Below are positions 32,218 through 59,801 of a stretch of 64,000 nt of DNA, one piece after another. Position 1 is the stretch's first letter. Each line of letters begins with the position of its first letter. Below the pieces are notes generated by a model that saw only the letters and a program-made list of their open reading frames with translations, was not told the origin of the DNA and ran no database searches. Where the stretch lies: positions 3,626,501-3,690,500 of the forward strand of contig NC_007645.1 in NCBI RefSeq assembly GCF_000012985.1, in the 5' to 3' direction. The position numbers and the translations under genes were made by a program. Source of the DNA: Hahella chejuensis KCTC 2396 (GTDB taxonomy: Bacteria; Pseudomonadota; Gammaproteobacteria; Pseudomonadales; Oleiphilaceae).

Positions 32218-32392
32218 AGCCACTATCACTATTAATCAGGCAGACAAATAGCTTCCTTCTATTTGTCTGCAACGACAGGGCCTGCCCATGTCAGGCCCTG
32301 TCTCCCGCGGCTAACAGTCGCGCAGGCGCATCCATGCGCCAGATATTAACATGTCAATATCATTGCCATATTAATATAGAAGGATAGTGGCT
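32218..32392. repeat. 145-bp multi-hairpin repeat, copy A (reverse), with flanking 10-bp inverted repeat
   Basis: The element spans 32231-32375 and has ATTAAT at both ends. It is the reverse complement of copies B, C and D. It contains, in forward sense, an ATTAATATGGCAATGAT end, a GGCGCATGGATGCGCC hairpin, a GCGGC region, an ACAGGGCCTG...CAGGCCCTGT hairpin and a CAGACAAATAG...CTATTTGTCTG hairpin. Outside it, AGCCACTATC (32218-32227) and GATAGTGGCT (32383-32392) form a further inverted repeat not seen at the other copies. The surrounding gap 32014-32463 also holds a CTCCG...CGGAG hairpin near 32177 and nothing else. Confidence 0.85.
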
Positions 32393-32463
32393 ACAGATAT
32401 TAGATAGCAGCTATAGATAGTTGGTACCTACTGTTGTCTTATGAATATGCTACTGTCGCCTTA

Positions 32464-33024
32464 TTAATAAAAATGGAAATAGCGGACACAGTAATAACCG
32501 CTATCATAGCCATCATCCGTACGATCTTGTGAAGACACATTCCAATCTAAGAATTCATTAAGAAAGGAATCTATATTTGTCGTATTGATCTTGCAGAGAG
32601 CATGCTTGTCCGTATCATCATTAATGCCGTTACCGGGGCGCTCAAGCCTTACTCGCTCAAAATAGGTCCCGAGCACTTTGCCTCCGGTTGTCAAGATGCT
32701 CAGCTCAAGGTTATGGTATTCACGTTTCCCCTTTTTAACGAAACTATCGTATTTAAGATATTTGTCGCGGTCTGTCAGGGGAGGGTTGACGATAAACGTT
32801 TCGATTCGGTTACGGGACTGAAAGCCTTGACCTGGCTGTAGCCACATTTCGTCGTAGATAACGCCATTTTCAGACAGCTTTATGTACAGTGTTTGTCCCG
32901 TATCATTGGTGAAACCATAGTAAGCGCGCCCGTGAGCGCCTTCTTCCGCCGTTGCTTGAAAGGGTAAAGTTGCGAGAAGCCCCAGGCCAGCCAATGTAGC
33001 GCAATTCTTGATGATGCGTTTCAT
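32464..33024 (-). CDS. secreted orphan protein
   Basis: 186 residues. The signal peptide MKRIIKNCATLAGLGLLATL...ATA has cleavage expected after ATA (about residue 26). The mature part is beta-rich, with GFTNDTGQTLYIKLSENGV near its start, a pattern seen in small periplasmic or extracellular proteins. Two Cys may pair. Function unknown. It lies between inverted repeat copies A and B. Confidence 0.7.
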   Translation of the reverse strand: MKRIIKNCATLAGLGLLATLPFQATAEEGAHGRAYYGFTNDTGQTLYIKLSENGVIYDEMWLQPGQGFQSRNRIETFIVNPPLTDRDKYLKYDSFVKKGKREYHNLELSILTTGGKVLGTYFERVRLERPGNGINDDTDKHALCKINTTNIDSFLNEFLDWNVSSQDRTDDGYDSGYYCVRYFHFY

Positions 33025-33283
33025 TTGTTTTCTATCCTTTGTTTATTAAGTTATTGATCCGATTAGATATAAATCCAACTTCATCTGACGCTTAAAGTAC
33101 GCTCTAACCCTCAAGAAGAAGGTTGGTAACTTCAGCGGGCGGCATTCTACAATTTAAAAAAGGAATGATTAGACCTCGTTTGGAAACAGAATGTTTTCAA
33201 AATCAGTACATATCTGATCTTGTTTGTGTGGAGCCCAGAGGTTATGCATAGAAAGATGCAGAGGTCGAGCCGCATAGGCGGAT

Positions 33284-34183
33284 CTACAGAATGCCGGACT
33301 CAAGCACAAAATCTATAAATGCCCGTACTCTACGTTTGACCGATTTCCGATCCGGGTACACCAGCCATAATTGATTCTCGTTACTTATCCACTCTTCAAA
33401 TAAGGATACGAGACTAGCTTCTGCAATATGTTTGGCTACAAAAAAATCAGAACAATAGAGAATACCTGCATGTCGGTGGCAGGCTTGTACGAGGGTGGTG
33501 ACGCTATCTGAGTATATGCAGGCATTAATCTCTAATTGGAGTACCTGTTGGTTTTGCGGATTTTTGAACGACCATACTGCATTTTTGGGGGAAAGTTGAT
33601 CCGAATAGGCGAGGCAGGACAATCGAGTGATATCTTGGATTTCCTTCGGGCTATGTGTTTTGATGAATTGAGGGCTCGCACATAAACGGTATGGTGCGCG
33701 TCTAAGTGGTCGAGCGATAAGGTTTGGATCTATGGTGGGAGATAATCGGAATGCCAAGTCGAACGGCTGCTCAACCAGATCAATGCACTGTATGGAAACA
33801 TTGGTGACGAAAGTGACGTCAGGGTGTAACTGCTGGAACTTGCATATTGGTTCCATCAGCAGTGATTCTCCAATTCCAGGAGGTAAGGATACAACAATAG
33901 GCCCGGATAAGTGCTCTTGTGTTTCGATGACCAATTGATCATTTTGCTCTAATGTCTTTAGCAATTTCGTTGAATGTTCGAAATAAACTTCACCCGCACT
34001 TGTCAGCACTAAGCGTCGGTTACTCCGATGCAACAATGTTACCCCAAGACGAGTTTCAAGGTGGGTGATCTTCTTGCTGATATTTGATTTGGTTGTACCT
34101 AAGTATTCGGCTGCCGATGTGAATGAACCATACTTGGCCGCAGTAACGAATTCTTGAATGCCGATCCATTTATCCATATGCAC
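33284..34183 (-). CDS. LysR-family transcriptional regulator
   Basis: 299 residues, typical length. The N-terminal winged HTH (residues 5-65: FVTAAKYGSFTSAAEYLGTT, then KSNISKKITHLETRLGVTLL) is followed by a periplasmic-binding-like co-inducer domain. It belongs to the CrgA/DsdC-like LTTR group by its C-terminal VYPDRKSVKRRVRAFIDF. No divergent target gene is adjacent: the RND pump on the other side is separated by repeat copy B. More AT-rich than neighbours. Confidence 0.9.
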   Translation of the reverse strand: MHMDKWIGIQEFVTAAKYGSFTSAAEYLGTTKSNISKKITHLETRLGVTLLHRSNRRLVLTSAGEVYFEHSTKLLKTLEQNDQLVIETQEHLSGPIVVSLPPGIGESLLMEPICKFQQLHPDVTFVTNVSIQCIDLVEQPFDLAFRLSPTIDPNLIARPLRRAPYRLCASPQFIKTHSPKEIQDITRLSCLAYSDQLSPKNAVWSFKNPQNQQVLQLEINACIYSDSVTTLVQACHRHAGILYCSDFFVAKHIAEASLVSLFEEWISNENQLWLVYPDRKSVKRRVRAFIDFVLESGIL

Positions 34184-34336
34184 TATTCTGTATTTCCGGT
34201 ACGAGGTTGGAGAACCCTCTGTAGTCTTAGCCCTGATTAAATTTTAGTGAAAATAGGGGTGGCCGCTCTTCGCATTAAAAATCAAGCGTTATACCACAAT
34301 ACATCATGTTTCCATGATGATGTCTTCTGCTGTGTT

Positions 34337-34481
34337 ATTAATATGGCAATGATATTGACATGTTAATATCTGGCGCATGGATGCGCCTGCGCGGCGGCTA
34401 GCCGCGGGAGACAGGGCCTGACATGGGCAGGCCCTGTCGTTGCAGACAAATAGAAGGAAGCTATTTGACTGCCTAATTAAT
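34337..34481 (+). repeat. 145-bp multi-hairpin repeat, copy B (forward)
   Basis: Full-length copy with ATTAAT ends, equal in length to copy A and in the opposite orientation. All hairpins are present; the last stem has TTTGACTG in place of TTTGTCTG. It lies in the 34184-34798 gap between the LysR gene and the RND operon. The rest of that gap shows only an AT-rich stretch that should hold the two promoters. Confidence 0.9.
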
Positions 34482-34798
34482 AGTAACTTTTCCCCTGCAG
34501 TCGTTACTTAATCGGATGAAATTCTATTAAGGGTCCTCTTGCAATTATCACAATAACTTGATTTCCTTAGCTTATTCTCAATCAAAATTTTTTCATTTCG
34601 CTCTGTCGAAATTCGCATTCGCCGTTCGACAAGGTGTAAATCCCCACTCTATTCCAGGCTTCCATATGCCTGCCGGCGTCCATTGGCGACAACCGGGACA
34701 CAGGGATTTGACAGGTTTATGATCATATTTTCGCGACAAGGTCCGATATTTGGCGAAAGTGGTCCAACGCTTTAACTCACTTTGCAGAGGAAGTGCAT

Positions 34799-35938
34799 AT
34801 GCTTAAAAAGCTCCTATGGGTGTTCGCTGGCCTTGTCGTCGTGGCGCTCATCGTTGGGGGAATCGTCCAGGTCAAGATGCAGCAGTTCGACACTATGGGG
34901 ACCGCCGCAGCGCAGATGACCATGCCGCCGACGCCGGTCAACACCTATACCGTCGAACAGTCGCAATGGCGTCCGCGCGTCTCCTTGGTGGGTTCCGTCA
35001 AACCGGTGCAGGGAACGGTAATCAACACCGAAATTGATGGGACGGTGAAAGAAATCAAATTCTCCGCTGGCGCGGACGTGAAAGCCGGCGATGTTCTGGT
35101 GCTGTTCGACGATGAGATCGAGCGGGCCGAGTTACGGGAGGCGGAAGTAGCCGCCGACCGCGCCCAGTTAAGCCTGACTCGCGCCAAAGAACTGAGCAAG
35201 ACGCGCAATATCTCCCAGCTGGAATTCGACAACGCGGAAAACGACGTAAAGCAGGCGCAGGCGCGACTGAATTACAACCGCGCCGTGATCGCCAAGAAAA
35301 CGTTGCGCGCTCCATTCGACGGCAAGTTGGGTATTCGCCAGATCAGCGTCGGTCAGTTCCTGAACAGGGGCACGCCCGTGGTGTCCCTGCAATCGCTGAA
35401 TCCGGTGTATGTGGAGTTTTCGCTGTCGCAACGGCGTCTGGGGGAGCTGGCGGAAGGCCTGAAAGTGGAAGTCGTCACCGATGCTTATCCAGAGCAAAAG
35501 TTTGTCGGCAAAATCACCGCATTCAACCCGGACATCGACCCCAACACTCGGAACGTGCGGGTGCAGGCGACGCTGGACAATCCTGAGGGCAAACTGCGTC
35601 CAGGCATGTTCGTCGCGATTGAGATGATTCTGGCGCAGGCGCGAGACGTGCTTTTCATTCCTTCCACTGCTGTGTTGCACGGCCCTTACGGTTCCTCCAT
35701 CTACGTGGTCGATAAAGGCGAAGCCAAAGACGGCGGCGACGCCCCTTTGGTATTACGTCAACAACTGGTGCGACTGGGAGAGACCCAGGGCGATTTTGTG
35801 ATCGTGGTCGAAGGCGTGAAACCCGGCGATCAGATCGTTTCCACCGGCTCGTTCAAGCTGATGCCCGGCATGTCCGTGGTGATTGACAATAAACTGGCGC
35901 CGGATTTCAAACTTAATCCGCAACCCAAGAATACCTGA
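34799..35938 (+). CDS. RND efflux membrane fusion protein
   Basis: 379 residues from ATG 34799, with AGAGG about 8 bases upstream. An N-terminal inner-membrane anchor (LLWVFAGLVVVALIVGGIV) precedes a barrel-sandwich/lipoyl domain split by an alpha-hairpin (GTVKEIKFSAGADVKAGDVL ... LRAPFDGKLGIRQISVGQFL), then beta-barrel and membrane-proximal domains. It couples the RND pump to an outer-membrane channel in the periplasm. Operon with the permease 14 bp downstream. No outer-membrane factor gene follows, so a TolC-like channel elsewhere must serve. Confidence 0.93.
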   Translation: MLKKLLWVFAGLVVVALIVGGIVQVKMQQFDTMGTAAAQMTMPPTPVNTYTVEQSQWRPRVSLVGSVKPVQGTVINTEIDGTVKEIKFSAGADVKAGDVLVLFDDEIERAELREAEVAADRAQLSLTRAKELSKTRNISQLEFDNAENDVKQAQARLNYNRAVIAKKTLRAPFDGKLGIRQISVGQFLNRGTPVVSLQSLNPVYVEFSLSQRRLGELAEGLKVEVVTDAYPEQKFVGKITAFNPDIDPNTRNVRVQATLDNPEGKLRPGMFVAIEMILAQARDVLFIPSTAVLHGPYGSSIYVVDKGEAKDGGDAPLVLRQQLVRLGETQGDFVIVVEGVKPGDQIVSTGSFKLMPGMSVVIDNKLAPDFKLNPQPKNT

Positions 35939-35952
35939 CAGGGCCGCCGATT

Positions 35953-39096: not shown

Positions 39097-39117
39097 GCAA
39101 TCAGCCTGCTTTGCAAT

Positions 39118-39183
39118 CTGGCGGACAAACAGATTCCCTGTATTTGTCCGCCAGCGACAGGGCCTGCTTCCAGCAGGCCTTTT
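39118..39183 (+). terminator. hairpin pair ending the RND operon, related to the repeat family
   Basis: CTGGCGGACAAA (39118-39129) pairs perfectly with TTTGTCCGCCAG (39143-39154). A GGCCTGC-TTCCA-GCAGGCC stem with TTTT then follows (39161-39183), a sound intrinsic terminator. The hairpins and the linking GCGACAGGGCCTGC resemble the CAGACAAATAG and ACAGGGCCTG hairpins of the 145-bp repeat, so this looks like a diverged part of that family now working as a terminator. Confidence 0.75.
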
Positions 39184-39194
39184 CGTACGCTCCC

Positions 39195-39503
39195 CAGCAA
39201 GTCCCGACGTTTCCCTTATCAACGCCCATAGCGCTAGCTGGCGCCGTCTTTCTGCTGTTTCTGCTGCGGTACGGCGGACTGGCTTTCTCATGCAGGTGAA
39301 AACCATGCATTCCCGGCTCCAGTCCTTCGAGAATCGGCCGGATTAATACGCCATGAGACGTGGGCTCCAGAATAACGGCGCCTATTTTATCTCCAACGTC
39401 CTGGTCGCTGATTTTGCTGACGGAAACCCGGATGGCGTTTTGCGCATGAGCGCCCAACGCGCCGCTCAGCGCAAGAGTCGCGGCGGCGATGGTTTCGGTT
39501 CAT
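39195..39503 (-). pseudogene. sodC: decayed Cu-Zn superoxide dismutase
   Basis: A clear SodC N-terminal third is visible: ISDQDVGDKIGAVILEPTSH, GVLIRPILEGLEPGMHGFHL, HEKAS. This includes the His pair that starts the copper site. A signal peptide (TIAAATLALSGALGAHAQ) precedes it, but its Met (ATG 39503, MNR) is in another frame by one base. After HEKAS the reading loses SodC similarity and runs into the repeat-like hairpins at 39118-39183. The catalytic second half (zinc loop, electrostatic loop) is gone. At least two lesions make this non-functional. Confidence 0.8.
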
Positions 39504-39533
39504 CGTCCATGAGTGCGGCCTTCGCTGGCGCCT

Positions 39534-40554: not shown

Positions 40555-40629
40555 AAACGCTCCTCAAAACTCATTACTGTATGCGGCATAACATTCCCCT
40601 TTATCACAGAACGTTAAAACTTCATAAAT

Positions 40630-40775
40630 ATTAACGTGGCAATGATATTAGCATGTTATTAATCAGGCGCAGGGATGCGCCTGCGCGGCGGCTGGCCGCG
40701 GGAGACAGGGCCTGACATGTGCAGGTCCTGTCGTTGCAGACAAATAGCTTCCTTCTATTTATCCGCCTGATTAAT
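40630..40775 (+). repeat. 146-bp multi-hairpin repeat, copy C (forward, terminal loop inverted)
   Basis: Same orientation as copies B and D, with the first end reading ATTAACGTGGCAATGAT. In the last hairpin the loop reads AGCTTCCTTCT, whereas copies B and D (and A when turned round) read AGAAGGAAGCT, its exact reverse complement. It fills most of the 40555-40902 gap between the orphan pair and a substrate-binding protein gene. Confidence 0.88.
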
Positions 40776-40902
40776 AATAACGTCGTATATCAGGTAAGCT
40801 ATACTTTTCTACAAACGCATGACCACCACAAACCATGGCGCCAGGGGCCGCTCATGTGCGGTTCAATGCCGCACCACGCTTTATCTGAAAGGGTGAATCT
40901 TT

Positions 40903-41761: not shown

Positions 41762-41808
41762 ATTAATCAGACGCATCCATGCGCCTGATTATTAACATGT
41801 CAATATGG
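41762..41808 (-). repeat. fragment E of the multi-hairpin repeat
   Basis: ATTAATCAG, ACGCATCCATGCGCCTG hairpin, then ATTAACATGTCAATATGG; reverse orientation, truncated before the last 15 bases of the consensus end. The convergent gene at 41800 terminates inside it and uses its CAATATGG as the stop and last codons. Confidence 0.8.
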
Positions 41809-42648
41809 CTGCTCTGCATTGGTTTCCTGCACCCCCGCGCCCTGCCACTTTGCGTTGATCTTGTAAAAAATCCCTTTCTCTACAATGCGTCGTTTGCCCG
41901 CATCGAAAACGCCCAACAGTTTTTCTCCGTCAGGGTTTTTCTTGGCGCTGACGGCGAATTCGTCGGTGGAGTCGAACACGGGAAGTTTTTTGTAATGATT
42001 GCGCCAGTTCGCCTGCTGCAGGGCGTAGTCGAAGTTCAGCTCATATCCGGCGAGACCGTCCAGGTGCCCTTTGTCCAGCATGGCGAAGCCTTGCAGAATC
42101 TCGCCCACGTCATACTTGACGATGCGGGACTGCCGCTCCCATTCCAGACCGTAATTCCAACCCCGCAACACGCCGATGGTTTTACCTTCCAAAGACGCCA
42201 GCCCATTCCAGCGCAGCTTGGCGTCCGGCTTTATATAGATCAGGAAGTCCACATGATTGATGGCCTCCTTGGAGTAATTGAAGTAGCTGGCGCGTTCCTG
42301 ATTGAATCCAGTGGGAAACAGGATGTCCAGCTTGCCGGCCTTCACTTGATCGAAGGCGCGAATCCAGGGATAGATATAAAGTTGAATGGTGTAGCCCATT
42401 TCATGATAACTCTCCCTCAGAACATCCCAGCTATATCCTTGCAGACGATCTGAGTCCAGGCCTGGCGGAATGGTTTCCCGTTGCACTTTTTCAGCAAAAC
42501 GCTTATCGAAAGTGAATGGCGGGTTATTGGTCAGGGTGGCGACCCTCACCAGTTTTTCCGCATCCGGTTCGTCAAAATGATCTTTCGCCCAGGAAAAAGG
42601 CGCGCCCAAGAGCAAAACGGTGAAAACTAGAATCAAAATCTGCACAGG
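41800..42648 (-). CDS. periplasmic solute-binding protein, 3' end within a repeat
   Basis: 282 residues from ATG 42648, which begins a clear signal peptide (MPVQILILVFTVLLLGAPFS); the longer frame adds 23 non-signal residues. The mature part is a family-3-type binding protein: VRVATLTNNPPFTFDKRF, SWDVLRESYHEMGYTIQLYI, YPWIRAFDQVKAGKLDILFP, TIGVLRGWNYG. The last codons and TGA stop (QPY*) lie in repeat fragment E, so the insertion or a later rearrangement probably replaced the native end. No transporter genes adjacent. Confidence 0.82.
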   Translation of the reverse strand, partial: PVQILILVFTVLLLGAPFSWAKDHFDEPDAEKLVRVATLTNNPPFTFDKRFAEKVQRETIPPGLDSDRLQGYSWDVLRESYHEMGYTIQLYIYPWIRAFDQVKAGKLDILFPTGFNQERASYFNYSKEAINHVDFLIYIKPDAKLRWNGLASLEGKTIGVLRGWNYGLEWERQSRIVKYDVGEILQGFAMLDKGHLDGLAGYELNFDYALQQANWRNHYKKLPVFDSTDEFAVSAKKNPDGEKLLGVFDAGKRRIVEKGIFYKINAKWQGAGVQETNAEQPY

Positions 42649-45743: not shown

Positions 45744-45762
45744 CTTGCGGCTGTCATTATCT

Positions 45763-45819
45763 GTGCAGGCCCGGTCGTTGCAGACAAATAGAAGGACGCC
45801 ATTTGTCTGCCTGATTAAT
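45763..45819 (+). repeat. fragment F of the multi-hairpin repeat
   Basis: The right end only: GTGCAGGCCCGGTCGTTG, CAGACAAATAG...CATTTGTCTG hairpin and CCTGATTAAT. It starts 20 bp upstream of the MocR gene start and ends 10 bp before the lyase gene stop, so it fills almost the whole gap. Confidence 0.85.
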
Positions 45820-45828
45820 AAGTCTGCG

Positions 45829-49160: not shown

Positions 49161-49207
49161 TTAATACAATGTCCAACTCTGTCTCCACCACCATCGTATT
49201 GTATTAA
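49161..49207. promoter_or_regulatory. TTAATACAAT...ATTGTATTAA inverted repeat
   Basis: A perfect 10-bp inverted repeat with a 27-base spacer, upstream of the Rrf2-family gene (start 49035). Its right arm overlaps the first bases of repeat copy D. It may be an operator pair for autoregulation, a hairpin, or a by-product of the repeat insertion. Confidence 0.4.
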
Positions 49208-49348
49208 TATGGCAATGATATTGGCATGTTAATGATCAGGCGCATGGATGCGCCTGCGTGGCGGCAAGTCGCGGGAGACAGGGCCTGACCTGTGCAGGCC
49301 CTGTCGTTGCAGACAAATAGAAGGAAGCTATTTGTCTGCCTGATTAAT
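49203..49348 (+). repeat. 146-bp multi-hairpin repeat, copy D (forward)
   Basis: Full copy with ATTAAT at both ends and all hairpins, nearest in sequence to copy B. It lies in the 49036-49661 gap between the Rrf2-family gene and vgrG. The remainder of that gap (49349-49661) reads open in the vgrG frame but does not resemble VgrG and probably holds its promoter and leader. Confidence 0.9.
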
Positions 49349-49661
49349 AACGCCGCGCCAGAAACCCCGCCAAGCTTGCCTTACACTTATACGCCACCCA
49401 CTTTATCGTTAAATAACAACAACTTGTAGCGTTTCGCCCCATGGCGTCGTTATGGAGATTTATGATCTAATGAACGCAAGAAAACCTCAGCGTTTTCGCT
49501 ACAGTCAGGCCAGGAGAAGGCATCGCTATCACCTCTTGCGCAGTAGGAGTCAGCCCTCCTCGCCAGCCGCTCAGGCCGCCTGTGCGCAACGTTGCAGATC
49601 ACATAATTTCGGCGGGAATGGCGGGAGAATCCGCGCCACTCTCGCCAAGATGGAGTTCCTT

Positions 49662-51815
49662 ATGGACGCCTTATTTATTGAAGAGGGTCGTTACACCCAG
49701 GACACCCGCCCCATCCGCATCGACACGCCACTGGGCAAGGACGTGTTTCTGTTGCGCCATTTTCGGGGTCAGGAAGGGTATTCGCAGTTGTTCCAGTATG
49801 ACGTGGACTTGCTGTCCCACAAGCGGGATATTCGCGCGGAAGACATCATCGGGGAAGCGGTGCAAGTCACCATTGGCGCTGATGGCGGCGCCCCTCGCGT
49901 GTTCAGCGGGCACGTGAGTTATTTCGAGTCCACCGGTCTGGAGAAACGGGGGTTGTACGGTTACAAAGCCGTTCTCGTCCCCTGGCTATGGTTTCTCGGC
50001 AAGAACACCGACTGCCGGGTGTTTCAAAACATGACCGCTCCCAAAATCCTGGAAGCCGTGTTCACGGAAGCGGGCTTTTCCGACTTCCGCTTCACCGGCC
50101 TGTATAACGAATACCCGGAACTGGAGTATTGCGTGCAGTACCGGGAGTCCGACCTGAATTTCGCTCTGCGCCTGATGGAGCAGGAAGGCATTTATTTCTA
50201 TTTCGAGCAGGCGCAGAAGCGGCATCTGCTGGTGCTGGCGGACGACAAATCCACCAACGCCCTTATGGAGCCCCGCAAGATTGAACATAGCTCCCGCCCC
50301 CGCAACGGCGGCTACATTCAGGAGTGGCGCCGCACCTATCAATACTTCTCCGGCAAATGGAGCCTGAGCGACTTCAACTTTGAAAAATCCGATCAGTCCC
50401 TGCTGGCGGAATGCTCCGCCCTGAACGAACTGCGAGGGGCCTCCGCTTACGAGCGCTTCGACTACCCCGGCGCCTTTGGCGATCAGGATCGCGGTCGCCG
50501 CTTGACCAAGCTGCGCATGGAGGAAGAGGAAAGCCGCTTCACCCGGGTCAATGGCAGAAGCAATCTGCCGCACCTGCTGGTGGGCCGAAAGTTCATGCTG
50601 GAATCAGAAGAATGCGTCACGGACAACCGCAAGAGTTTCGTCGTCACGGCGGTGCGTCATTACGCTTATGAAGGCGGTTACACCAGTGCGGACAGCCCGG
50701 AGAGCGCAGATAAAGAGAAAAGCGTGTATTTCAACCGCTTTGAATGTCTGCCGGACAACGTCAGTTTCCGCCCCGCCCTGAGCACGCCCAAACCCCGTAT
50801 AGACGGCGTCCAGACCGCCATCGTCTGCGGCAAAAGCGGCGACGAGATTTATACTGACGAGTACGGCCGCATCAAAGTCCAGTTCCATTGGGACCGCTAC
50901 GGCGAACGCAACGAAAACAGCTCCTGCTGGGTGCGGGTGGCCACGCCCTGGGCGGGTAAAAAATGGGGCAGCATGGGCATCCCCCGCGTTGGCCAGGAAG
51001 TGGTGACCACTTTTCTGGAAGGCGACCCGGACCGCCCGCTGGTCATAGGCGGCGTCTACAACAAGGGCAATATGCCTCCCTACTCCCTGCCGGACAACAA
51101 GTCCCGTTTCGGCGTGAAGTCGCAATCCACCAAAGGCGGACAAACCTCCAACTACAACGAAATTTCGTTCGACGACAAGAAAGGCGAAGAGTCGTTGAAT
51201 ATCCATGCTGAGAAAGACTTCAACATGGAGGTGAAAAACAACATCGGCGCCAACGCCAAAGGCCACTCCACCAGCAGTATTGGCGGCAATGCGTCGGATT
51301 CGGTGGCGGGAAACAGTTCTCTCAGCGTCGGCGGCGATCATTCCGTGTCTGTGACCGGTAAGCAGAACGTGTCGGTGACCGGCGCGCAGACTCACTCTGT
51401 CACCGGGGCGCAAACCCTCAATGTGGGCGCGGATCAGACGGAGTCCGTCTCCGGCAATATCACCCAGAACGCCACCAACCAGACGCTCACCCTGTCGGCG
51501 GACCAGACCGTCAGCGCGACCAACCAGAAGGTCAACCTGGGCGCCGCGCAGGAAGTAACCGCGTCCAGTCAGAAATTCACGATCAGCGGTTTGCAAAGCG
51601 TGCAGGCGGATGCGCAAACGGTGACTGTCACCGGCAAGACCACTACCACCGCCACGGACATCGATCTGGCGGCGGGGGGCAATATTTCCCTGCGAGTGGG
51701 CGGGACAAGCATTCAAATTAACGACGGAGGCGTCACCATCACCATTGGCGGCAGCTCCATCAAAGTCGACGGCGCCGGGGTGTCCGTGTCCGGTCCGATG
51801 ATCAAGTTGAACTGA
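49662..51815 (+). CDS. vgrG: type VI secretion spike protein VgrG
   Basis: 717 residues from ATG 49662 (GGAG 6 bases upstream), starting MDALFIEEGRYTQDTRPIRI; the frame is open 70 codons further but without similarity. gp27-like domain (about 20-370: LRHFRGQEGYSQLFQYDV, YCVQYRESDLNFALRLMEQE, GIYFYFE), gp5 OB fold (YTDEYGRIKVQFHWDRYG), then WVRVATPWAGKKWGSMGIPR. A C-terminal beta-helix of short QT/QS-rich repeats follows (about 560-700). There is no C-terminal effector, so the cargo is the downstream Rhs protein. First gene of a VgrG-adaptor-Rhs-immunity unit; no T6SS core genes are in the window. Confidence 0.95.
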   Translation: MDALFIEEGRYTQDTRPIRIDTPLGKDVFLLRHFRGQEGYSQLFQYDVDLLSHKRDIRAEDIIGEAVQVTIGADGGAPRVFSGHVSYFESTGLEKRGLYGYKAVLVPWLWFLGKNTDCRVFQNMTAPKILEAVFTEAGFSDFRFTGLYNEYPELEYCVQYRESDLNFALRLMEQEGIYFYFEQAQKRHLLVLADDKSTNALMEPRKIEHSSRPRNGGYIQEWRRTYQYFSGKWSLSDFNFEKSDQSLLAECSALNELRGASAYERFDYPGAFGDQDRGRRLTKLRMEEEESRFTRVNGRSNLPHLLVGRKFMLESEECVTDNRKSFVVTAVRHYAYEGGYTSADSPESADKEKSVYFNRFECLPDNVSFRPALSTPKPRIDGVQTAIVCGKSGDEIYTDEYGRIKVQFHWDRYGERNENSSCWVRVATPWAGKKWGSMGIPRVGQEVVTTFLEGDPDRPLVIGGVYNKGNMPPYSLPDNKSRFGVKSQSTKGGQTSNYNEISFDDKKGEESLNIHAEKDFNMEVKNNIGANAKGHSTSSIGGNASDSVAGNSSLSVGGDHSVSVTGKQNVSVTGAQTHSVTGAQTLNVGADQTESVSGNITQNATNQTLTLSADQTVSATNQKVNLGAAQEVTASSQKFTISGLQSVQADAQTVTVTGKTTTTATDIDLAAGGNISLRVGGTSIQINDGGVTITIGGSSIKVDGAGVSVSGPMIKLN

Positions 51816-51820
51816 ACGCC

Positions 51821-53137
51821 ATGACGGATAAGAACCCAATCGAAAGAGAGCTGGAAAAGCTCGACGCACAGTGGGAGACGTTCGTGGAAAGCGAGCGCCC
51901 TATCCTACGCTGGTGTATTGACCCGGACGCCGGCCAACTGGTCGCCGCCTTTCTGAAAATGCGGGAGCAGTTTGACGAAACCTCCGGCGAGTTCTTTGTC
52001 GCCCTGCATTCGGAGTTTTTAAGCCTGGAAAGTTTCGGCTATGACCTGGCGGAGGAACTGAACCGGGAAATCGCAGCCGGCGTCGCCGCCAGTGCGGAAG
52101 ACGAGGATGGGGACGAAGAAGTGTTTTCCTGGCGCGCCCCCGACCCGAACAAAGCGCTCAGCGGCCACGACGCCTTGTACAAAAGCTGTCACCAGATTCT
52201 GGATGCTTTCTCTGATTACTTCTCCACCCTGGTGATCGCCATCCAGCCTCACGCAGTCAGCGACATCAAGAAACTGCAACGCTGGCTGCAACTGGCCTGC
52301 GAGATTCATCGCGACTATAAGCTGTGGGGCGGCAATCTGAAGTGGATCATTATCGACAACGCGCAGCGCCCCGCCTTCGCCAAACTGGCCCAGGATTATT
52401 CCGCGCAGATTTTCAGCCAGACGCCGCCTTTGAATCTGCGGGAGGCCATGAACAAAATCATGGAGGAAGCAGATGACGGCTCCCCCGGCGCGGAATTCCG
52501 ACAGTGTTTCGTGGATATGAACTACGCCGTGCAGAACAACGACCTGCCCGCCCTGCAGCGGCGCTCGGAACGCGCGCTGGTGATCGCCGCAGAACAAGCC
52601 TGGTTTGACATGCAGTGTTCAACGTTGCTGTTGCGGGCCTCCGGCTATCTGAACGCCAAACTTCCCGAAAAAGCGCTCATGGACTACCAACAGGCGCAAC
52701 AGTGCGCGTTGAAAGGCGTCGAGGCGGAGCGTCCCGGTTGCGACAAGTTGCTGTTTCAGGCCCACATGAGCGAAGCCAGCGCCTATTTGAGCGAAAAGCG
52801 CTATGAGGAAGCCGCCAAGCGTTTCCGCCGCAGCGCCGATATCGCAGAGACGCAGGAGGACGCCATGATGTGTGTGGAAAGCTGGCGCCTGCAAAGTTAT
52901 TGCCTGGAGCGCCTGAAGCTCAAAGGTTACGCCTGGGAAAGCGCGCTGCGAGGACTCAAGGCGGCGGAAGCTATTGAGCCGGAGCAACGGCGATACACCA
53001 CGCTGTCCTACCTGGGCGAAACGCTGTTGCGGGTGGCGCCGACCAAAGAGGACAAAGACTACGTTCACGCAACGATGAGTGAACTACTGGGCGAGGCCTG
53101 GCGGGAAGCTCCCGCCGCCAAAGCGGAGACAGTCTGA
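51821..53137 (+). CDS. unrecognised 438-residue protein between VgrG and Rhs
   Basis: Starts 5 bp after vgrG and its stop overlaps the Rhs start (TGATG), so all three are translationally coupled. Acidic and highly helical. The C-terminal half (about 240-430) reads like TPR repeats (LLRASGYLNAKLPEKALMDY, AHMSEASAYLSEKRYEEAAK, AWESALRGLKAAEAI). It is not an EagR, DUF4123 or DUF2169 adaptor that I recognise. By position it should be a chaperone or loading factor for the Rhs effector. Confidence 0.85.
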   Translation: MTDKNPIERELEKLDAQWETFVESERPILRWCIDPDAGQLVAAFLKMREQFDETSGEFFVALHSEFLSLESFGYDLAEELNREIAAGVAASAEDEDGDEEVFSWRAPDPNKALSGHDALYKSCHQILDAFSDYFSTLVIAIQPHAVSDIKKLQRWLQLACEIHRDYKLWGGNLKWIIIDNAQRPAFAKLAQDYSAQIFSQTPPLNLREAMNKIMEEADDGSPGAEFRQCFVDMNYAVQNNDLPALQRRSERALVIAAEQAWFDMQCSTLLLRASGYLNAKLPEKALMDYQQAQQCALKGVEAERPGCDKLLFQAHMSEASAYLSEKRYEEAAKRFRRSADIAETQEDAMMCVESWRLQSYCLERLKLKGYAWESALRGLKAAEAIEPEQRRYTTLSYLGETLLRVAPTKEDKDYVHATMSELLGEAWREAPAAKAETV

Positions 53138-56100
53138 TGCTGGCGGCCAAGCACTTTGATCCCATACTGGGTATCGATATTCATTTGTTGGCGTTGCCGC
53201 CGGGAACGCCCATTCCTATCCCCCATCCGCACATCGGCATTATTTTCGATGTGCTGGACTACCTGCCGATATTCGGCGGCACGGTGAAAGTCAACGGCGT
53301 ACCCCGCGCAACGGCAGGCACGGCGGGCAAACCCATCCCCCATATTCCCATGGGCGGTCCGTTCGTCATGCCGCCTGGGAACGAAGACGAGATTTTCATG
53401 GGCGGCGCGACAGTAGTGGCGGACGGCGCGCCCTTCAGCTTCACCGCGCTGCCGGTGCTGAGTTGTCAGAGCGTAGGCATGCTGGCGCCCATTCGCGCCA
53501 AGAAGCCCAAAAAGTCCTACGGCATGGTGCTGCCCACCACCACCGTACTGCCCATTCCCATTGGCGCGCCGGTCATGATCGGCGGCCCGCCCACGGTGGA
53601 CGCCATGGGGATGGCTGTCACCGCCGGGCTGGCGGGGCTGGGCGCAGCGTTCAAAAAGATGCGCAAGATGCAGAAAAGCAGTAAGCGCGTCAAAAAGATC
53701 TCCGACGCCATCCATAAGAAAGCCGACAAGCTCATGGACAAACTGGGCGCGCCGCCCAGCGTCCGCAACCGCGTTCACAAAGGCGTTTGCGCGGTCACCG
53801 GGCACCCGGTGGATGTCGCCTCCGGCAAGGTTTTTACAGACTGGATCGATTTCCAGTTGCCCGGCCCGATTCCGCTGACCTGGGAGCGCACCTGGTTCAG
53901 CTCGTCCACCTATCAGGGATCTCTCGGTCACGGCTGGCATCACAACTATGACTGGAAGCTGATCGAAGAAGACGGCGCGGTCGCGGTGATGATGCAGGAC
54001 GGCCGACATATGGCGTTTCCCGCGCTGAAGCAGGGAGAAGAAAGCTTTAACCGCCAGGAACGCATGACGCTGCATCGGGACGACCAGGGCTATCGCCTCA
54101 AACATACCGACGGCAACTGGCTGCGCTTCACGCCGGCGGCGACGTCCAGCCATTCGCAGGCGACAACGGTGCATTATCTGAGCGCCATCACCGACGCCAC
54201 TGGCGACGCCAGCATTCAGTTTCACTACACCGCAGGCGGCTGTCTGAGCCGGATCATCGACAGCGGCGGGCGGCGCATTCAGTTTGAAAGTGATATGGAC
54301 AATCGCATCCGTCGCATCTTGCTGCCGCATCCCGATAACGCCGGCGAGTTTTACTGCGCCGTGGAATACGATTATTACGGCGGCGACCTGGTGACCACGC
54401 GGGACGCGCTGGGCAGTGAGTTTAGCTATCAATACCAGAATCACCTGCTTTGTCAGGAGACCAGCTACAGCGGCCTGAATTTCTATTTCAAATACGATGG
54501 CGTTGACCACAACGCCCGCTGCATTCACACCTGGGGCGATGGCGGCATTTATAACCACCAGCTTGTCTACGACGATGAGAAAAGCCTCACCATCGTACAA
54601 AACTCCCTCGGCTATCAGACCGTTTATCACCATGACGGCGCCCTGCCCCATAGAATCGAAAACGCCTCCGGCGGCGTGGTCGTCAACGAATACAACAGGT
54701 TTTATCAAGTCACCTGCGAAACCAACGAACTGGGCCTGTCGACGCGCTACGAGTATGACCCGCGCGGCAACCTCACCCAAATCACCCAGCCGGACGGCTC
54801 CGTGCTGCAGATGGAGTATGATGAGCGGGATAATGTGGTTAAAGCGCAGGACGCCAATGGCGGCGCCTGGTTATGGGAATATGACGAGCACTGTCGCCTC
54901 ACCGCCAAGGTGGACCCACTGGATCGCCGGACCCGCTACAGCTACGAAGGAGCCATGCTGACGTCTGTCGCAGGTCCTGCCGGACAAGAAACCCATATCG
55001 AATACGACGGGTACAACAACCCCATCGGCTTCGCCACGCCTGACGGCGGCTTGCCTGAATGGCGCTATGACAACCATGGCCGCATTACTCTCGCCATCGA
55101 CGCACAAGGCGTACAACGCCGTTTGCAATATGATCTGCTAGGCCGCGTCACCCAGGTCAACGAACCTGACGGCAATCTCAGAACGTTCTCCTATGACCCT
55201 GAAGGCAACCTCGTTCGCGCCACAGACGCTCAGTTTGACGTGCATTTCACTTATCAGGGCATGGGACGGATCGCCTCTCGCACCCAAGCGGGAACCACGA
55301 TTCAGTTTGAATACGATACCGAAGAGCAGCTGACGGCGATTACTAACGAGCACGGCGATGTCTATCGCTTTGAGCTGGGTCCAACAGGGGAAACACTGTC
55401 TGAATCTGGATTCGATGGACTATTGCGTCGATATGAGCGCAATGCCGCCGGCCAGGTTCGCCGCCTCCTCAAGCCCGGCGGGCGCCATACTGATTACGCC
55501 TACGATACGCTTGGCCGCGTGATGCGAATCTTGCACAGCGATGGCGAAGAGGAACGTTTTCAATACCGCCCCGACGGCGAACTGATGATGGCCGTCAATA
55601 GCAGCGCAACGCTGTCTTTCGAACGCAACGCATTAGGCCAGGTGACAAAAGAAATCTGCGGCGATCTCTGGGTTTCGTCAGAGTATGACGCACTGGGCTT
55701 ACGCTCACGCATGCGCTCTTCTCTTGGCGCAGGGCAGCAAATTCAGCGCAATGTTGCTGGCGACGTTATGGGCGTGACAACAGGCGACGCCCAATTCTCC
55801 GCACAGTTCAAACGAGATGAGCTAGGGCGCGAACTAGAACGAAGTTTGCCAGGAGGCGTCCGAAGCCGGTGGCGCCGGGATCGCCTGGGGCGCCCCTCGC
55901 TGCATGAAGTACTCAAAGCCGACGTCCCAGAGTCCGCAAGGACCTATTTCTGGGGTGTGAACGGCCGTCTGGAAAAAATACACGACTCACTTAACGGCGT
56001 TTCCGTCTTCGAGCATGACGAATTAGGCAATCTGGTTTCCGCCCGTTATGGCGACGGCGTCATGGACTTGCGTATGCCAGACGCCATCGGCGCCCTATTC

Positions 56101-57495
56101 CAGTCCTATAACCGGAAAGATCGCGAATACGGCCCAGCCGGTCAGCTGCTGTCGATGCGCCGGCCTAATGGTCTTGTGCGCTTTGAATACGATGCGGAAG
56201 GGAATCTGATTACCAAGTCGGAACCCGGGGGCAAAATCTGGCGCTATGAATGGAATGTTTCCGGCACACTGAAAAAAGTCATTCGACCGGATGGCCGCAT
56301 CGTCACATTCGAATATGACGCGCTTGGCCGGCGCCTCAGCAAAGCTTTCAACGGTCGCATCACACGCTGGGTCTGGGACGGCAATAATCCGTTGCATGAA
56401 TGGGTGGAAATGCAAGACGCTCAGGAAGCGCGCGCAGCATTCGATCTGTCTTCCGCCCCCGCTGAAACCGTCTCAGGACGCCCGGCCATCGCCCGCAGCC
56501 CCATTCAACCGCAGGCGCCTCCTGCTACTTCACCACAAGCGCATCCCGCTGGCGCCGGCGGAGAAAGTAAACTCATCACCTGGCTGTTTGAGCCGGAAAG
56601 CTTCACCCCCATGGCTAAACAGGTGGGAGACGCTTATTTCTCTATCCTCGCGGATTATCTGGGAACGCCCAACGCCATGTACGACAGCGAGGGACGGCAG
56701 GTATGGTCGGCTAATATCAGCGTCTGGGGCGAACTGCGCAACCTTAAGGGTAATAGAGGCGCCTGCCCTTTCCGCTGGCCAGGCCAATACGAGGATGAAG
56801 AGACCGGCTTATATTACAACCGGTTCCGGTATTATGATCCAGACTCGGGCCAGTATATTCGGCAGGATCCGATTCGTATAAAAGGAGGACTGAACCTTTA
56901 TAAATACGTTAGTGATGTAACAACTTGGATAGACACTTTAGGTTTACAAGGCGGTTCTGCTTCCTATGGAAGATCTGGAAGGCGAATTGGACATGCGGAT
57001 ACAGACGGTTTAGAAAAAATTGGAGAACTAAACGCAGTTAAAGCAGGGGGAGATGATCGCCTCCCAAGTATTCTTTATGAAGGTGATCGAACCAGCTTAT
57101 TTCATTACACAAGCGAAGAAAATTTGGAGAATATTTTAAGAACGAAGAAGCTTTTCAACTCTAAGGGGTTTGAGCACGGTAGGCATGGCGATGGCCAATA
57201 TATGGCGGACATCTCACCCGATGAGATTGTTGCGATGGCTAAAGGTGATTTGACCCAAGCTCAACGGCAAGCTAAAAAAATGTCGCTTGTCCAGCTTTCA
57301 TCCTTGTTCTACAACAAAGGTAACATGACGGATCAGCTTAGCCACTATATTGAGATAGACGTTTCAGACCTTATTGTTCGGCATGGGGTTACAGCCAAAG
57401 GCAATCAGACAAGGAAGGGCGTCCAGTTTGTGCTAAACGATGAAAACCTGGATCTGACAGATCGTATTGTTAGCTCAGGAAAGGTGCTTGATTAG
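53137..57495 (+). CDS. PAAR-Rhs type VI effector with HYD1-type ADP-ribosyltransferase C-terminus
   Basis: 1452 residues. N-terminal PAAR spike tip (1-135; PIPHIPMGGPF, DEIFMGGATVVADG), a helical linker (165-200), a DUF6531-like entry (GHPVDVASGKVFTDW), about 20 Rhs/YD repeats (for example YEYDPRGNLTQITQPDG) forming the cocoon, and the core end GLYYNRFRYYDPDSGQYIRQ ... LGLQ near residue 1270. After the core the base composition turns AT-rich. The last 180 residues match the Tox-ART-HYD1 pattern as I recall it: LFHYTSEENLENIL (His about 1321), GDGQYMADISPDE (Tyr about 1354), THYVEIDVSGL-like HYIEIDVSDL, and DRIVSSGKVLD. Such domains transfer ADP-ribose from NAD. Delivered on VgrG into rival cells; the next gene is the likely immunity. 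Confidence 0.92.
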   Translation: MLAAKHFDPILGIDIHLLALPPGTPIPIPHPHIGIIFDVLDYLPIFGGTVKVNGVPRATAGTAGKPIPHIPMGGPFVMPPGNEDEIFMGGATVVADGAPFSFTALPVLSCQSVGMLAPIRAKKPKKSYGMVLPTTTVLPIPIGAPVMIGGPPTVDAMGMAVTAGLAGLGAAFKKMRKMQKSSKRVKKISDAIHKKADKLMDKLGAPPSVRNRVHKGVCAVTGHPVDVASGKVFTDWIDFQLPGPIPLTWERTWFSSSTYQGSLGHGWHHNYDWKLIEEDGAVAVMMQDGRHMAFPALKQGEESFNRQERMTLHRDDQGYRLKHTDGNWLRFTPAATSSHSQATTVHYLSAITDATGDASIQFHYTAGGCLSRIIDSGGRRIQFESDMDNRIRRILLPHPDNAGEFYCAVEYDYYGGDLVTTRDALGSEFSYQYQNHLLCQETSYSGLNFYFKYDGVDHNARCIHTWGDGGIYNHQLVYDDEKSLTIVQNSLGYQTVYHHDGALPHRIENASGGVVVNEYNRFYQVTCETNELGLSTRYEYDPRGNLTQITQPDGSVLQMEYDERDNVVKAQDANGGAWLWEYDEHCRLTAKVDPLDRRTRYSYEGAMLTSVAGPAGQETHIEYDGYNNPIGFATPDGGLPEWRYDNHGRITLAIDAQGVQRRLQYDLLGRVTQVNEPDGNLRTFSYDPEGNLVRATDAQFDVHFTYQGMGRIASRTQAGTTIQFEYDTEEQLTAITNEHGDVYRFELGPTGETLSESGFDGLLRRYERNAAGQVRRLLKPGGRHTDYAYDTLGRVMRILHSDGEEERFQYRPDGELMMAVNSSATLSFERNALGQVTKEICGDLWVSSEYDALGLRSRMRSSLGAGQQIQRNVAGDVMGVTTGDAQFSAQFKRDELGRELERSLPGGVRSRWRRDRLGRPSLHEVLKADVPESARTYFWGVNGRLEKIHDSLNGVSVFEHDELGNLVSARYGDGVMDLRMPDAIGALFQSYNRKDREYGPAGQLLSMRRPNGLVRFEYDAEGNLITKSEPGGKIWRYEWNVSGTLKKVIRPDGRIVTFEYDALGRRLSKAFNGRITRWVWDGNNPLHEWVEMQDAQEARAAFDLSSAPAETVSGRPAIARSPIQPQAPPATSPQAHPAGAGGESKLITWLFEPESFTPMAKQVGDAYFSILADYLGTPNAMYDSEGRQVWSANISVWGELRNLKGNRGACPFRWPGQYEDEETGLYYNRFRYYDPDSGQYIRQDPIRIKGGLNLYKYVSDVTTWIDTLGLQGGSASYGRSGRRIGHADTDGLEKIGELNAVKAGGDDRLPSILYEGDRTSLFHYTSEENLENILRTKKLFNSKGFEHGRHGDGQYMADISPDEIVAMAKGDLTQAQRQAKKMSLVQLSSLFYNKGNMTDQLSHYIEIDVSDLIVRHGVTAKGNQTRKGVQFVLNDENLDLTDRIVSSGKVLD

Positions 57496-57756
57496 ATGAA
57501 GTATTACAAGTCTTACACTGAGTCTCACGATGGGGAGGAAGGTTTTTACTATTGTGAGGTGAAGAATGGCCTAATTACTCGACAGATAAACGCCTTCAAT
57601 AATGTGCTTTATTGGGCGACGCCATCAGATGAGTACGATGAAGAATACTTTTTTACAGACCAGCCTGAGTTTAGCTTATCCAAAAATGACCTAGAGATAT
57701 CTTCAGATGAATTTTTAGACCTCTGGAAGGTCGCGACAACACAGAAGCCTGACTAG
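57496..57756 (+). CDS. candidate immunity protein for the Rhs toxin
   Basis: 86 residues; ATG directly abuts the Rhs stop (TAG-ATG). Small, strongly acidic (DEYDEEYFFTD, DLEISSDEFLDLW), AT-rich like the toxin tip, no signal peptide, so it should act in the cytoplasm. The family is not recognised. The place immediately after a polymorphic toxin tip is the standard position for immunity genes. Confidence 0.75.
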   Translation: MKYYKSYTESHDGEEGFYYCEVKNGLITRQINAFNNVLYWATPSDEYDEEYFFTDQPEFSLSKNDLEISSDEFLDLWKVATTQKPD

Positions 57757-57777
57757 CAGAGCTTCCTTAAGCTCTGC
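57756..57777 (+). terminator. hairpin at the end of the VgrG-Rhs unit
   Basis: GCAGAGCTT-CCTT-AAGCTCTGC, a perfect 9-bp stem starting at the last base of the immunity stop codon. No T tract directly follows. Confidence 0.5.
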
Positions 57778-57829
57778 TCTGGACTGTCCCAGAGAAGCTC
57801 TAAAAAGCCACTTCGCGAGAGTGCATTAT

Positions 57830-58444
57830 TTATTCACTTTTTCCATAACGCCCCAAAAACATCTCCACCGCAGCGGCGACGATTTCACGTCGCTCCGCCT
57901 GCGTGGGGTTGGGCGCGTGGCCAACGATTTGCGGCCAGAAGGCGAAGGCTTTTATCTGGCTCATGAATTGGGTGGCGGCGAATTCCGGGTCGACCTTGAT
58001 CAGTCTTTTATCCGCCATGGCGGCTTTTAGCCAGCGTTTGGTTCCGCCCTCGTTTTCCTGCATTTTCTGCATCGCCTGCCGCGCCAGGTCGGGAGACAGC
58101 ATGTATTCCGCCAACACCATGCGCGCCATGGCGATATAGCCTTCCGATCCCAGCAGCTCCAGTTCCTGTTCTGCAATGGCGGTGAGTTGTGGAGCCAGGG
58201 GGGCGTCGCTTTGGTAAGGAAACTCTGTGGCGTCCATCGCCTTGCGCCATACCTGCTCCGTGATTTCAATAAATAAGGCTTCTTTGCTGGTGAAATGATT
58301 GTACACCGTGCGTTTGGACACCTGCGCCCGCTCGGCGATGCGATCCATGCTCGCGCCTTGAAAGCCGGACTCCTGAAACACACTGACCGCAGCGTTCAGA
58401 ATCGCTTCACGTTTACGTTCGCTCAGACTTTTTTTCTTTTCCAT
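57830..58444 (-). CDS. TetR/AcrR-family repressor
   Basis: 204 residues from ATG 58444 (MEKKKSLSERKREAILNAAV); a TTG-started frame from 58480 is longer but less likely. TetR HTH (residues 10-55: FQESGFQGASMDRIAERAQV, SKRTVYNHFTSKEALF) and a ligand-binding C-terminal domain of the AcrR C-like type. Divergent from the MBL-fold hydrolase gene, which it probably controls. Confidence 0.9.
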   Translation of the reverse strand: MEKKKSLSERKREAILNAAVSVFQESGFQGASMDRIAERAQVSKRTVYNHFTSKEALFIEITEQVWRKAMDATEFPYQSDAPLAPQLTAIAEQELELLGSEGYIAMARMVLAEYMLSPDLARQAMQKMQENEGGTKRWLKAAMADKRLIKVDPEFAATQFMSQIKAFAFWPQIVGHAPNPTQAERREIVAAAVEMFLGRYGKSE

Positions 58445-58526
58445 TGCCTTATCCAGGTCGTGTTGGGTAGAAGTGAACAATGCAGAGAAGTTTACACTCT
58501 CCAGTTTACTTTTGAAAATTTACGAG

Positions 58527-58542
58527 TACACTGCTCGGTGTA
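58527..58542. promoter_or_regulatory. operator candidate TACAC-N6-GTGTA
   Basis: An inverted repeat in the 136-bp gap between the TetR gene and the MBL gene, flanked by several GTTTACA-like words (58490-58550). The size suits a TetR dimer. Confidence 0.4.
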
Positions 58543-58580
58543 GTTTACAAACAATTGAACAGACCGGTTGGATACACATC

Positions 58581-59750
58581 ATGAAAAAACGCCTGTTATT
58601 CGGCTTGGTTGTTATCACATTGGGAGCTTTAGCCATGCAAAACGACGACACTCTCGCCACATTGACCGGTCTGGGCGCGCCGACATCGCCAGTCGCTTCC
58701 TCCGACGCATACAGCGACAACTTCCACGAAGGCAAATTTCATAATTCCATCCCGACGCTGGCGAACGCAGGCATGGGCAAAATGCTGAAAAGCTTCCTGT
58801 TTGATAAAAGCGCCGCCGCTCGTCCGGATAAGGCGATTCCACTGCAGCCAATGCAATCTGAGCAATTGCTTAGCGAAGAACGTAACGCGGTATACCGCCT
58901 GGGCCATTCCACCGTGTTAATTCGCTTCGAAGGCGACTTCTGGCTGACTGATCCGGTATTCTCGGACAGGGCCTCCCCGGTGCAGTGGGCCGGCCCCAAA
59001 CGTTTCCACCCTGCCCCCATTGAGATGGAGCAACTGCCGCCAATCAAGGGCGTGCTGATTTCACACAATCACTACGATCATTTGGATGCAGGCTCCATCA
59101 AGGCGCTAAACTCTCGCGTCGAGCATTTCTATACCCCCCTTGGCGTGGGCCGACAGCTAAAGGCCTGGGGCGTCCCTGCGGAAAAAATCACCGAGCTGGA
59201 CTGGTGGTCGTCAGTGCAGGTTGGGCCTGTGACGTTGGCGGCGACGCCTGCGCAGCACTTTTCCGGTCGCGGCCTGTTCGACGGCAATACGACTCTGTGG
59301 GCGTCCTGGGTGATGCTGGGAGCAAAAGAACGCCTGTTCTTCAGCGGCGACAGCGGTTACTTCCCAGGCTTCAAGGAGATTGGCGACAAGTACGGCCCCT
59401 TCGACCTGACCATGATCGAAACCGGCGCTTACAACCACAACTGGCCCGGCGTGCATATGCACCCGGAAGAAAGCATCCAGGCTCATATCGATCTGCAGGG
59501 CAAGCAGATGATGCCGATTCACAACAGCACTTTCGACTTGGCGATGCACGCCTGGTATGACCCCCTTGAACGCATTGCGGAACTGGCGCGAGAGCGTCAG
59601 GTGACGTTGCGTACGCCAAAAATCGGCGCGCCCCTGGTGCTGGCGGAGCCCGCGCAGCAAACCTACTGGTGGCGGGAACTGATGCCCGCAAATGCAGAGG
59701 CGACCGAGTACGCGGACAAAGAGCCGTCGGCACAACCGGAGTTTCTATAA
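58581..59750 (+). CDS. MBL-fold metallohydrolase, NAPE-PLD/UlaG-like
   Basis: 389 residues from ATG 58581. N-terminal hydrophobic signal or anchor (MKKRLLFGLVVITLGALAM). The metallo-beta-lactamase metal motif is SHNHYDHLD (about 160), with further ligands in AQHFSGR, SGDSGYF and MPIHNSTF. It belongs to the group that includes NAPE-PLD and RomA-like outer-membrane-associated proteins, which cleave phosphoester or lactone bonds. Substrate unknown. Divergent from a TetR gene, as with inducible lipid-detoxifying enzymes. Confidence 0.88.
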   Translation: MKKRLLFGLVVITLGALAMQNDDTLATLTGLGAPTSPVASSDAYSDNFHEGKFHNSIPTLANAGMGKMLKSFLFDKSAAARPDKAIPLQPMQSEQLLSEERNAVYRLGHSTVLIRFEGDFWLTDPVFSDRASPVQWAGPKRFHPAPIEMEQLPPIKGVLISHNHYDHLDAGSIKALNSRVEHFYTPLGVGRQLKAWGVPAEKITELDWWSSVQVGPVTLAATPAQHFSGRGLFDGNTTLWASWVMLGAKERLFFSGDSGYFPGFKEIGDKYGPFDLTMIETGAYNHNWPGVHMHPEESIQAHIDLQGKQMMPIHNSTFDLAMHAWYDPLERIAELARERQVTLRTPKIGAPLVLAEPAQQTYWWRELMPANAEATEYADKEPSAQPEFL

Positions 59751-59763
59751 GCGCTCAGCCATT

Positions 59764-59801
59764 ATTAATATGGCGATGATACTGGCATGTTATTAATCAG
59801 G
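59764..59801 (+). repeat. fragment G of the multi-hairpin repeat
   Basis: Left end only: ATTAATATGGCGATGATACTGGCATGTTATTAATCAGG. It starts 13 bp after the MBL gene stop. The rest of the 59751-60361 gap has no repeat and one weak ORF. Confidence 0.8.

Follow-up and report, generated by a model that had tools for sequence, protein, structure and literature searches.

We analysed a window of 64,000 nucleotides from Hahella chejuensis KCTC 2396 (positions 3,626,501-3,690,500 of a 7,215,267-bp contig) together with its own genome (G000) and six relatives of the genus (G001-G006; seven Hahella genomes including G000). The window carries four full copies (a to d) and four pieces of a short, hairpin-rich repeat. 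This repeat is a new family of miniature inverted-repeat transposable elements (MITEs) of Hahella, of a kind already known (RUP / IS630-Spn1-like). A profile built from 35 copies of four genomes was run on fetched stretches, including 400 kb around the window, and located the following:

32230-32376, minus strand: full copy a, 168.6 bits; sits in the loop of an intrinsic-terminator-like hairpin
34336-34482, plus strand: full copy b, 171.1 bits; chimeric junction, left flank G003-like, right flank G001/G004/G005-like
40629-40776, plus strand: full copy c, 138.9 bits; hairpin-5 loop inverted
49202-49349, plus strand: full copy d, 173.8 bits
39115-39185, minus strand: decayed piece, model positions 75-144 (hairpins 4 and 5), 31.4 bits, E 1e-7
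41768-41812, minus strand: internally deleted copy, model positions 11-55 joined directly to the right end, 31.1 bits, E 2e-7
45757-45820, plus strand: 3' piece, model positions 85-148, 56.1 bits, E 3e-15
59763-59803, plus strand: solo hairpin-1 piece, 22.3 bits, E 8e-5; G001 and G004 carry like pieces in the same setting

The full copies are 147-148 bp long including the terminal TA on each side (E 9e-41 to 2e-51) and can be aligned end to end. An original prediction, made from the letters of the window, had listed four full copies, three fragments and a related hairpin pair. Whole-length alignment and the profile bore out the full copies, and the profile recovered all four pieces, the coordinates being good to a few bases in both cases. 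The prediction had also seen no copy in the first 31 kb, and positions 1-32229 gave no profile match at E 0.01. Since the 400 kb yielded 31 hits with pieces counted, a 32-kb gap is unremarkable.

The consensus reads TATTAAY-ATGGCAATGATATTGGCAT...GCCTGATTAATA, with terminal inverted repeats (TIRs) TATTAAY..GGC at both ends. The predicted ATTAAT ends are right; together with the target TA they become TATTAAT...ATTAATA. Among 89 full copies collected across the genus, the terminal TA is present at the start of 87 and at the end of 86. Behind the leading T, the left end and its own inverse make up an imperfect palindrome of 31 bases; four more hairpins come after it, so that five occur in the order predicted. 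DNA folding of copy b placed them on the plus strand as follows:

34337-34367: hairpin 1, the left TIR then its imperfect inverse
34372-34387: hairpin 2
34390-34406: hairpin 3
34410-34438: hairpin 4
34442-34472: hairpin 5; repeat family D4

The DNA fold of copy b reached -45.5 kcal/mol (z -9.1) and the RNA fold a z of -5.7, and none of 200 shuffles was as good in either case. The hairpin structure is beyond chance. The copies had been described as free of open reading frames (ORFs). No transposase lies within the 148 bp, and the description needs one qualification: a frame of 47 codons, the longest of the consensus, is open across the reverse strand.

Family size and insertion sites

The genome holds many further copies, and the original prediction, which their absence would have refuted, stands on this point. 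A search of G000 with copy b gave 270 first-look candidates, of which at least 40 were scored; these 40 were all 92-100% identical. At least 51 full-length copies were verified in G000. An exact hairpin-5 pattern matched 109 times forward and 106 times in reverse (control 0), perfect palindromes being counted twice; 100 rows corresponded to 59 loci, and scaling up from these gave an extrapolated total of roughly 125 loci. Over all fetched stretches, 156 profile hits reduced to the 89 distinct full copies: 51 in G000, 15 each in G005 and G001, six in G004, one in G006 and one in a record of Hahella sp. HN01 (NZ_JAHMIN010000037.1).

The family was confined to the genus in our searches. At E 0.001, five of 97 genomes searched (own included) had a match, all of them Hahella; the Hahella members G002 and G003 (two of seven) had none, and neither did any of 90 genomes of other genera of the same family and order. 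Copy b had no match among plasmids, and blastn with an E limit of 10 found none in 20,395 E. coli records. Rfam gave no gathering-score match in the window. No paper on this repeat family was among the literature matches listed, in a search that mostly left subscription papers outside, and the available text of PMC3733652 and PMC2817692 does not mention Hahella.

Six groups of two to four identical full copies (18 of 89) occupy different sites with unlike flanks. Such identity is a sign of recent movement. For some decayed pieces, G000 and G005 share the flanks (G000:C1:3531733-3531780 and G005:C1:4017821-4017869; G000:C1:3533482-3533587 and G005:C1:4019754-4019859), so part of the family is older than the species split. 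At two different sites, G000:C1:3705798-3705962 and 3814989-3815102, we saw the same partial duplication of hairpin 5, the second also being internally deleted; this derivative seems to have amplified.

We looked for empty sites by joining the flanks with no, one or two TAs and aligning them to the relatives. Of 25 full copies examined, an orthologous locus existed for 11. We used eight of them and added window copy a from G003, giving nine loci and 15 comparisons. Three loci were left out: at G000:3675702 the relatives have 115-118 bases of different sequence, G005:3782302 may be filled (133-342 bases), and G005:4018798 is decayed. One TA was best in 12 of the 15 comparisons, and at seven of the nine loci, including those of window copies a and c, all comparisons agreed on it. 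In the eight junctions of the 15 that were printed, the TA was intact in six and read AA in two. At the site of copy a, G003 has an uninterrupted terminator-like hairpin with TA in its loop; at that of copy c, G005 has a single TA. No clean empty site was found for copy d, the orthologous loci having diverged. As read from these alignments, the element is at a TA duplicated on insertion. Of 54 copies (L028 and L034 were dropped beforehand), 38 had T at -1, 49 had a purine at +1 and 31 had T at +2, so the aligned target resembles TAT-TA-RTA.

Gene calls from a home-made hexamer model placed 88 of the 89 full copies between genes, the remaining one overlapping a weak ORF; the intergenic share was 25% for 6000 random TA sites and 40% for 1858 target-like sites. 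Copies between co-oriented genes (n=49) ran along the genes in 25 cases and against them in 24. Convergent gaps held 19 of 88 copies (22%), slightly more than the 15% that target-like intergenic sites would predict.

Several further preferences were considered and rejected. The mean flank-palindrome score, which would reveal a preference for hairpins or terminators, was 4.65 versus 4.66 for shuffled pairings (54 copies); a score of at least 8 was reached by three of the 54 versus 0.7 expected (maximum 2 in 40 shuffles), a weak signal. A bias in chromosome orientation was dropped after a look by eye: one pattern gave 32 forward and 14 reverse matches, the 40 scored copies 22 and 18. A promoter, terminator or integration host factor (IHF) role was not borne out. 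Scans of 32150-34600 found one promoter-like site versus 6.3 expected and four terminator-like sites versus 2.2 expected, none of the latter inside copies a or b, and the consensus had no match to the IHF consensus pattern.

A candidate IS630-family partner and the rival explanations

We searched the genus for transposases of the DDE_3 and Y1 families. The DDE_3 search revealed a 1.1-kb IS630-type insertion sequence (IS) in G000, G001 and G005 that encodes a DDE transposase of 344 aa. The protein matched the IS630 family model NF033545 of NCBIfam with 235 bits (cut-off 100) and DDE_3 of Pfam (PF13358) with 136 bits (cut-off 28.6). The full frame is uninterrupted in seven copies (one in G000, three in G001, three in G005), and one more copy in G000 is interrupted by two stops. 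The left ends read TATTAA in seven of seven and the right ends in six of seven, L064 being off by one base. In G004 the IS appeared as 19 short matches, and all eight with loci lay at most 3 bases from a contig end; elements in many copies are expected to break a draft assembly in this way. G003 and G006 had no match to the IS protein; G002 had a marginal one (42 aa, E 1e-8). Among 194 genomes of the order, searched at E 1e-80, the transposase was found only in the own genome and in one genome of another family (66-67% identical).

The ends of the IS single themselves out. We compared each MITE end with all 2158 26-base positions (both strands) of one G001 IS copy, and for each MITE end the two IS ends ranked first and second. 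The left MITE end equalled the IS ends at 21 and 19 of 26 bases (next best 14), the right end at 17 and 17 (next best 15). A fragmentary IS copy of G001 starts with TATTAATCAGGCA, of which 13 bases are identical to the right MITE end. Presence follows the same pattern: the IS occurs in G000, G001, G004 and G005, where MITEs are numerous; in G002 and G003 both the MITE and any full IS of this kind are missing; and G006, which lacks the IS, has three diverged MITE matches. At L081 (G000:C1:6030900-6034295), a broken IS630 copy has an end adjoining a solo MITE hairpin 1. A second DDE_3 type of the own genome, the L062 group, was rejected as a partner since its ends differ (six copies compared).

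Taken together, these comparisons make it very probable that the repeat is an IS630-type MITE family moved in trans by the 344-aa transposase of the IS in the same genomes. The original prediction had offered a MITE or a BIME-type REP element moved by an unknown transposase. TIRs, a duplicated TA, the lack of an internal transposase, intergenic placement and identical copies with different flanks speak for the first term, and the unknown transposase gives way to an IS630-family candidate with matching ends in the same genomes. Both things it had advised looking for, empty sites and a transposase with matching ends, were found, as single-TA sites and the IS630-type candidate. In the mechanism we propose, the IS630 transposase would bind the MITE ends and move the element in trans, with insertion at targets resembling TAT-TA-RTA. 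The five-hairpin interior would be passenger DNA without a gene. Copies would later decay, shed internal parts and recombine with each other.

Several observations weigh against this assignment. The TIR match is partial past the first 13 bases, and no IS copy has ends identical to those of the MITE. Only the ends stand out in the comparison: the IS interior is not the source of the MITE interior, so a simple deletion within the IS copies seen would not yield the MITE. The seven genomes are related and their ancestry confounds the co-occurrence; there is also the marginal IS match in G002. Two empty-site loci, both with diverged flanks, departed from the single TA: G005:3741990 fitted better with two TAs versus G001 and versus G004 (two of three genomes), and G001:2028830 versus G000 with none. 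The TA-duplication data come from MITE sites. Transposase families beyond the two searched could share such ends, and the evidence for movement comes from comparison of sequences.

Three other explanations were weighed. The MITE might be moved by a different TA-targeting transposase, the IS630 element being only a distant cousin of the true parent. The partial TIR identity (17-21 of 26), the unrelated interiors and the coexistence of several DDE_3 lineages, as the L062 group of the own genome shows, leave room for this. We consider it very unlikely given that no other position of the IS matches either MITE end as well as the two IS ends do, that the ends of the L062 group are unlike those of the MITE and that IS presence follows MITE presence across the genus. 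A REP/BIME-type family (REP, repetitive extragenic palindrome; BIME, bacterial interspersed mosaic element), in which a Y1 (RAYT) transposase moves the hairpins as single strands, would account for the strong hairpins, high copy number and intergenic placement. Y1 genes are present (three matches in the own genome, 20 in the genus), and one locus, L055, has an element copy ~1.1 kb away. A neighbour of this kind among three own-genome genes is unsurprising, with ~0.3 expected by an estimate from 270 candidates in 7.2 Mb. At the other 19 loci, scanning the flanks (up to 1.5 kb) for the motifs found no copy, though decayed ones would escape such a scan, so element motifs lie near one of the 20 Y1 loci of the genus. 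Y1 matches also occur in the MITE-free G002 and G003. TIRs and a duplicated TA are features of DDE transposons, and the unit has 147-148 bp with defined ends, not a palindrome of 20-40 bp. The BIME-type REP half of the original prediction is therefore highly implausible.

In the third explanation, mobility is secondary: selection maintains the hairpins since they serve the host, in RNA processing, as a terminator or as a protein-binding site. The case for it draws on the pairing in the stems, which we scored over 77 distinct rows. Standard pairs made up 95.0% of the pair cells; column shuffles averaged 94.5% (maximum 94.7%), so this share alone says little. Changes on both sides occurred in 10 of 52 hairpin pairs (17 cells) versus a shuffle mean of 2.1 pairs and a maximum of 7 (200 shuffles, kinship ignored), and partners slid out of register gave four to six such pairs. 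The two-sided changes favour a function, as do the same-context counterparts of the solo hairpin at 59763 in two other species and the other decayed pieces, some of them common to G005. On the opposite side stand a standard-pair share hardly above the shuffles, the even orientation between co-oriented genes, the mildness of the convergent-gap excess, the position of all four terminator-like sites of 32150-34600 outside copies a and b, and one amplified sub-type that tolerates an unpaired hairpin-5 position (10 of 77 distinct rows). We regard a host function as the driving force as improbable.

The paired changes may have another source. In two identical copies, the only departures from the consensus are four bases that make up two complementary pairs of hairpin 4, and one of the 89 full copies, window copy c, has its hairpin-5 loop inverted, as a switch within the hairpin would leave it. 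From these copies we put forward, as a possibility that we rate somewhat doubtful, that arm-to-arm correction, that is, template switching within a hairpin during replication or transposition, preserves the palindromes of the five hairpins.

Relation to known repeats

The pair formed by the MITE and the IS has its closest parallel, by description, in RUP / IS630-Spn1. In PMC2229807, RUP of Streptococcus pneumoniae is a non-coding, intergenic element of 107 bp with 108 copies, IS630-like TIRs and a TA target, and it is reported to tend to insert into IS elements. The Hahella element shares the non-coding, intergenic character, the IS630-like TIRs and the TA target; it differs in genus, in its 148 bp and in its five hairpins. 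The enterobacterial ERIC (IRU, RU-1) is described there as intergenic, 127 bp long, with TIRs, a target-site duplication (TSD) and TA at the termini, all but the length being likenesses to our element; ~30 copies are reported for E. coli K-12 in PMC10969869. The two differ in sequence, copy b being unmatched in the E. coli records. The Correia (NEMIS) element of Neisseria, as summarised in PMC2229807 and PMC10969869, is likewise short with TIRs (24 bp), a TSD and terminal TA, and has stem-loop transcripts, promoters and an IHF site reported, whereas the Hahella consensus has no match to the IHF consensus pattern. REPs, of 20-40 bp according to PMC3733652, resemble our element as high-copy intergenic palindromes, and the Hahella element is set apart from REPs and BIMEs by its 148-bp unit, TIRs and TA duplication.

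A second, REP-like repeat surrounds AAGCCCTTCGACAGGCTCAGGGCGAACGG. We counted 11 matches to it in 400 kb of G000, and further ones turned up in sequence fetched from G001, G004 and G005; the sites, outside the window, include G000:C1:3720975-3721013, 3722063, 3722550, 3725231, 3805689-3806072 and 3871129-3871364. Its core pattern is absent from the window and from the flanks examined of the 20 Y1 loci.

A probable rearrangement at copy b and neighbouring features

The two flanks of copy b have different relatives. On its left, window positions 32462-34337, which hold a LysR gene, are 86% identical to G003; on its right, from 34481, the DNA is 90-91% identical to G001, G004 and G005. Each of the two homologies breaks off inside the element's terminal TA. 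At the break point all four relatives have TA, with a different neighbour on the other side: another segment of ~850 bp in G005 and G004, and of ~1.3 kb in G001. The ~850-bp segment of G005 had no match in the own genome, in a search without a positive control. The G003 sequence past the break matched the own genome only in its first 41 bases, which are the left flank of copy b, and in one short stretch elsewhere. Neither search brought up a reciprocal recombination product in the own genome, a negative of little weight for want of a positive control. From these flanks, copy b probably marks a recombination between two MITEs, two direct copies, that deleted the intervening DNA. A composite transposon, with copies a and b as an inverted pair around the LysR gene, was considered and rejected: copy a is a simple insertion, as its empty site in G003 indicates, and at copy b just one outer end meets homology of the relatives.

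Elsewhere in the window, ~135 bp at 32065-32199 match two places in G001 (94% and 92%), and syntenic homology in G001, G004 and G005 ends just before them. Positions 53137-57495, downstream of a VgrG-like gene (49452-51815), encode a 1452-aa RHS-repeat protein with a C-terminal Tox-ART-HYD1 (ADP-ribosyltransferase-like) domain. The product looks like a type VI secretion RHS effector.

For annotation, the family accounts for probably more than 100 intergenic repeats in a Hahella genome, and copy b suggests that such repeats serve as rearrangement points. The MITE and the IS630 element make a compact, testable pair, for which there are empty sites, identical copies, a consensus of the target and a candidate transposase within one cell. 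The hairpins with paired changes are open to study as well. If arm-to-arm correction is at work, the element would re-copy its own stems, and the family would be a natural recorder of template switching at hairpins.

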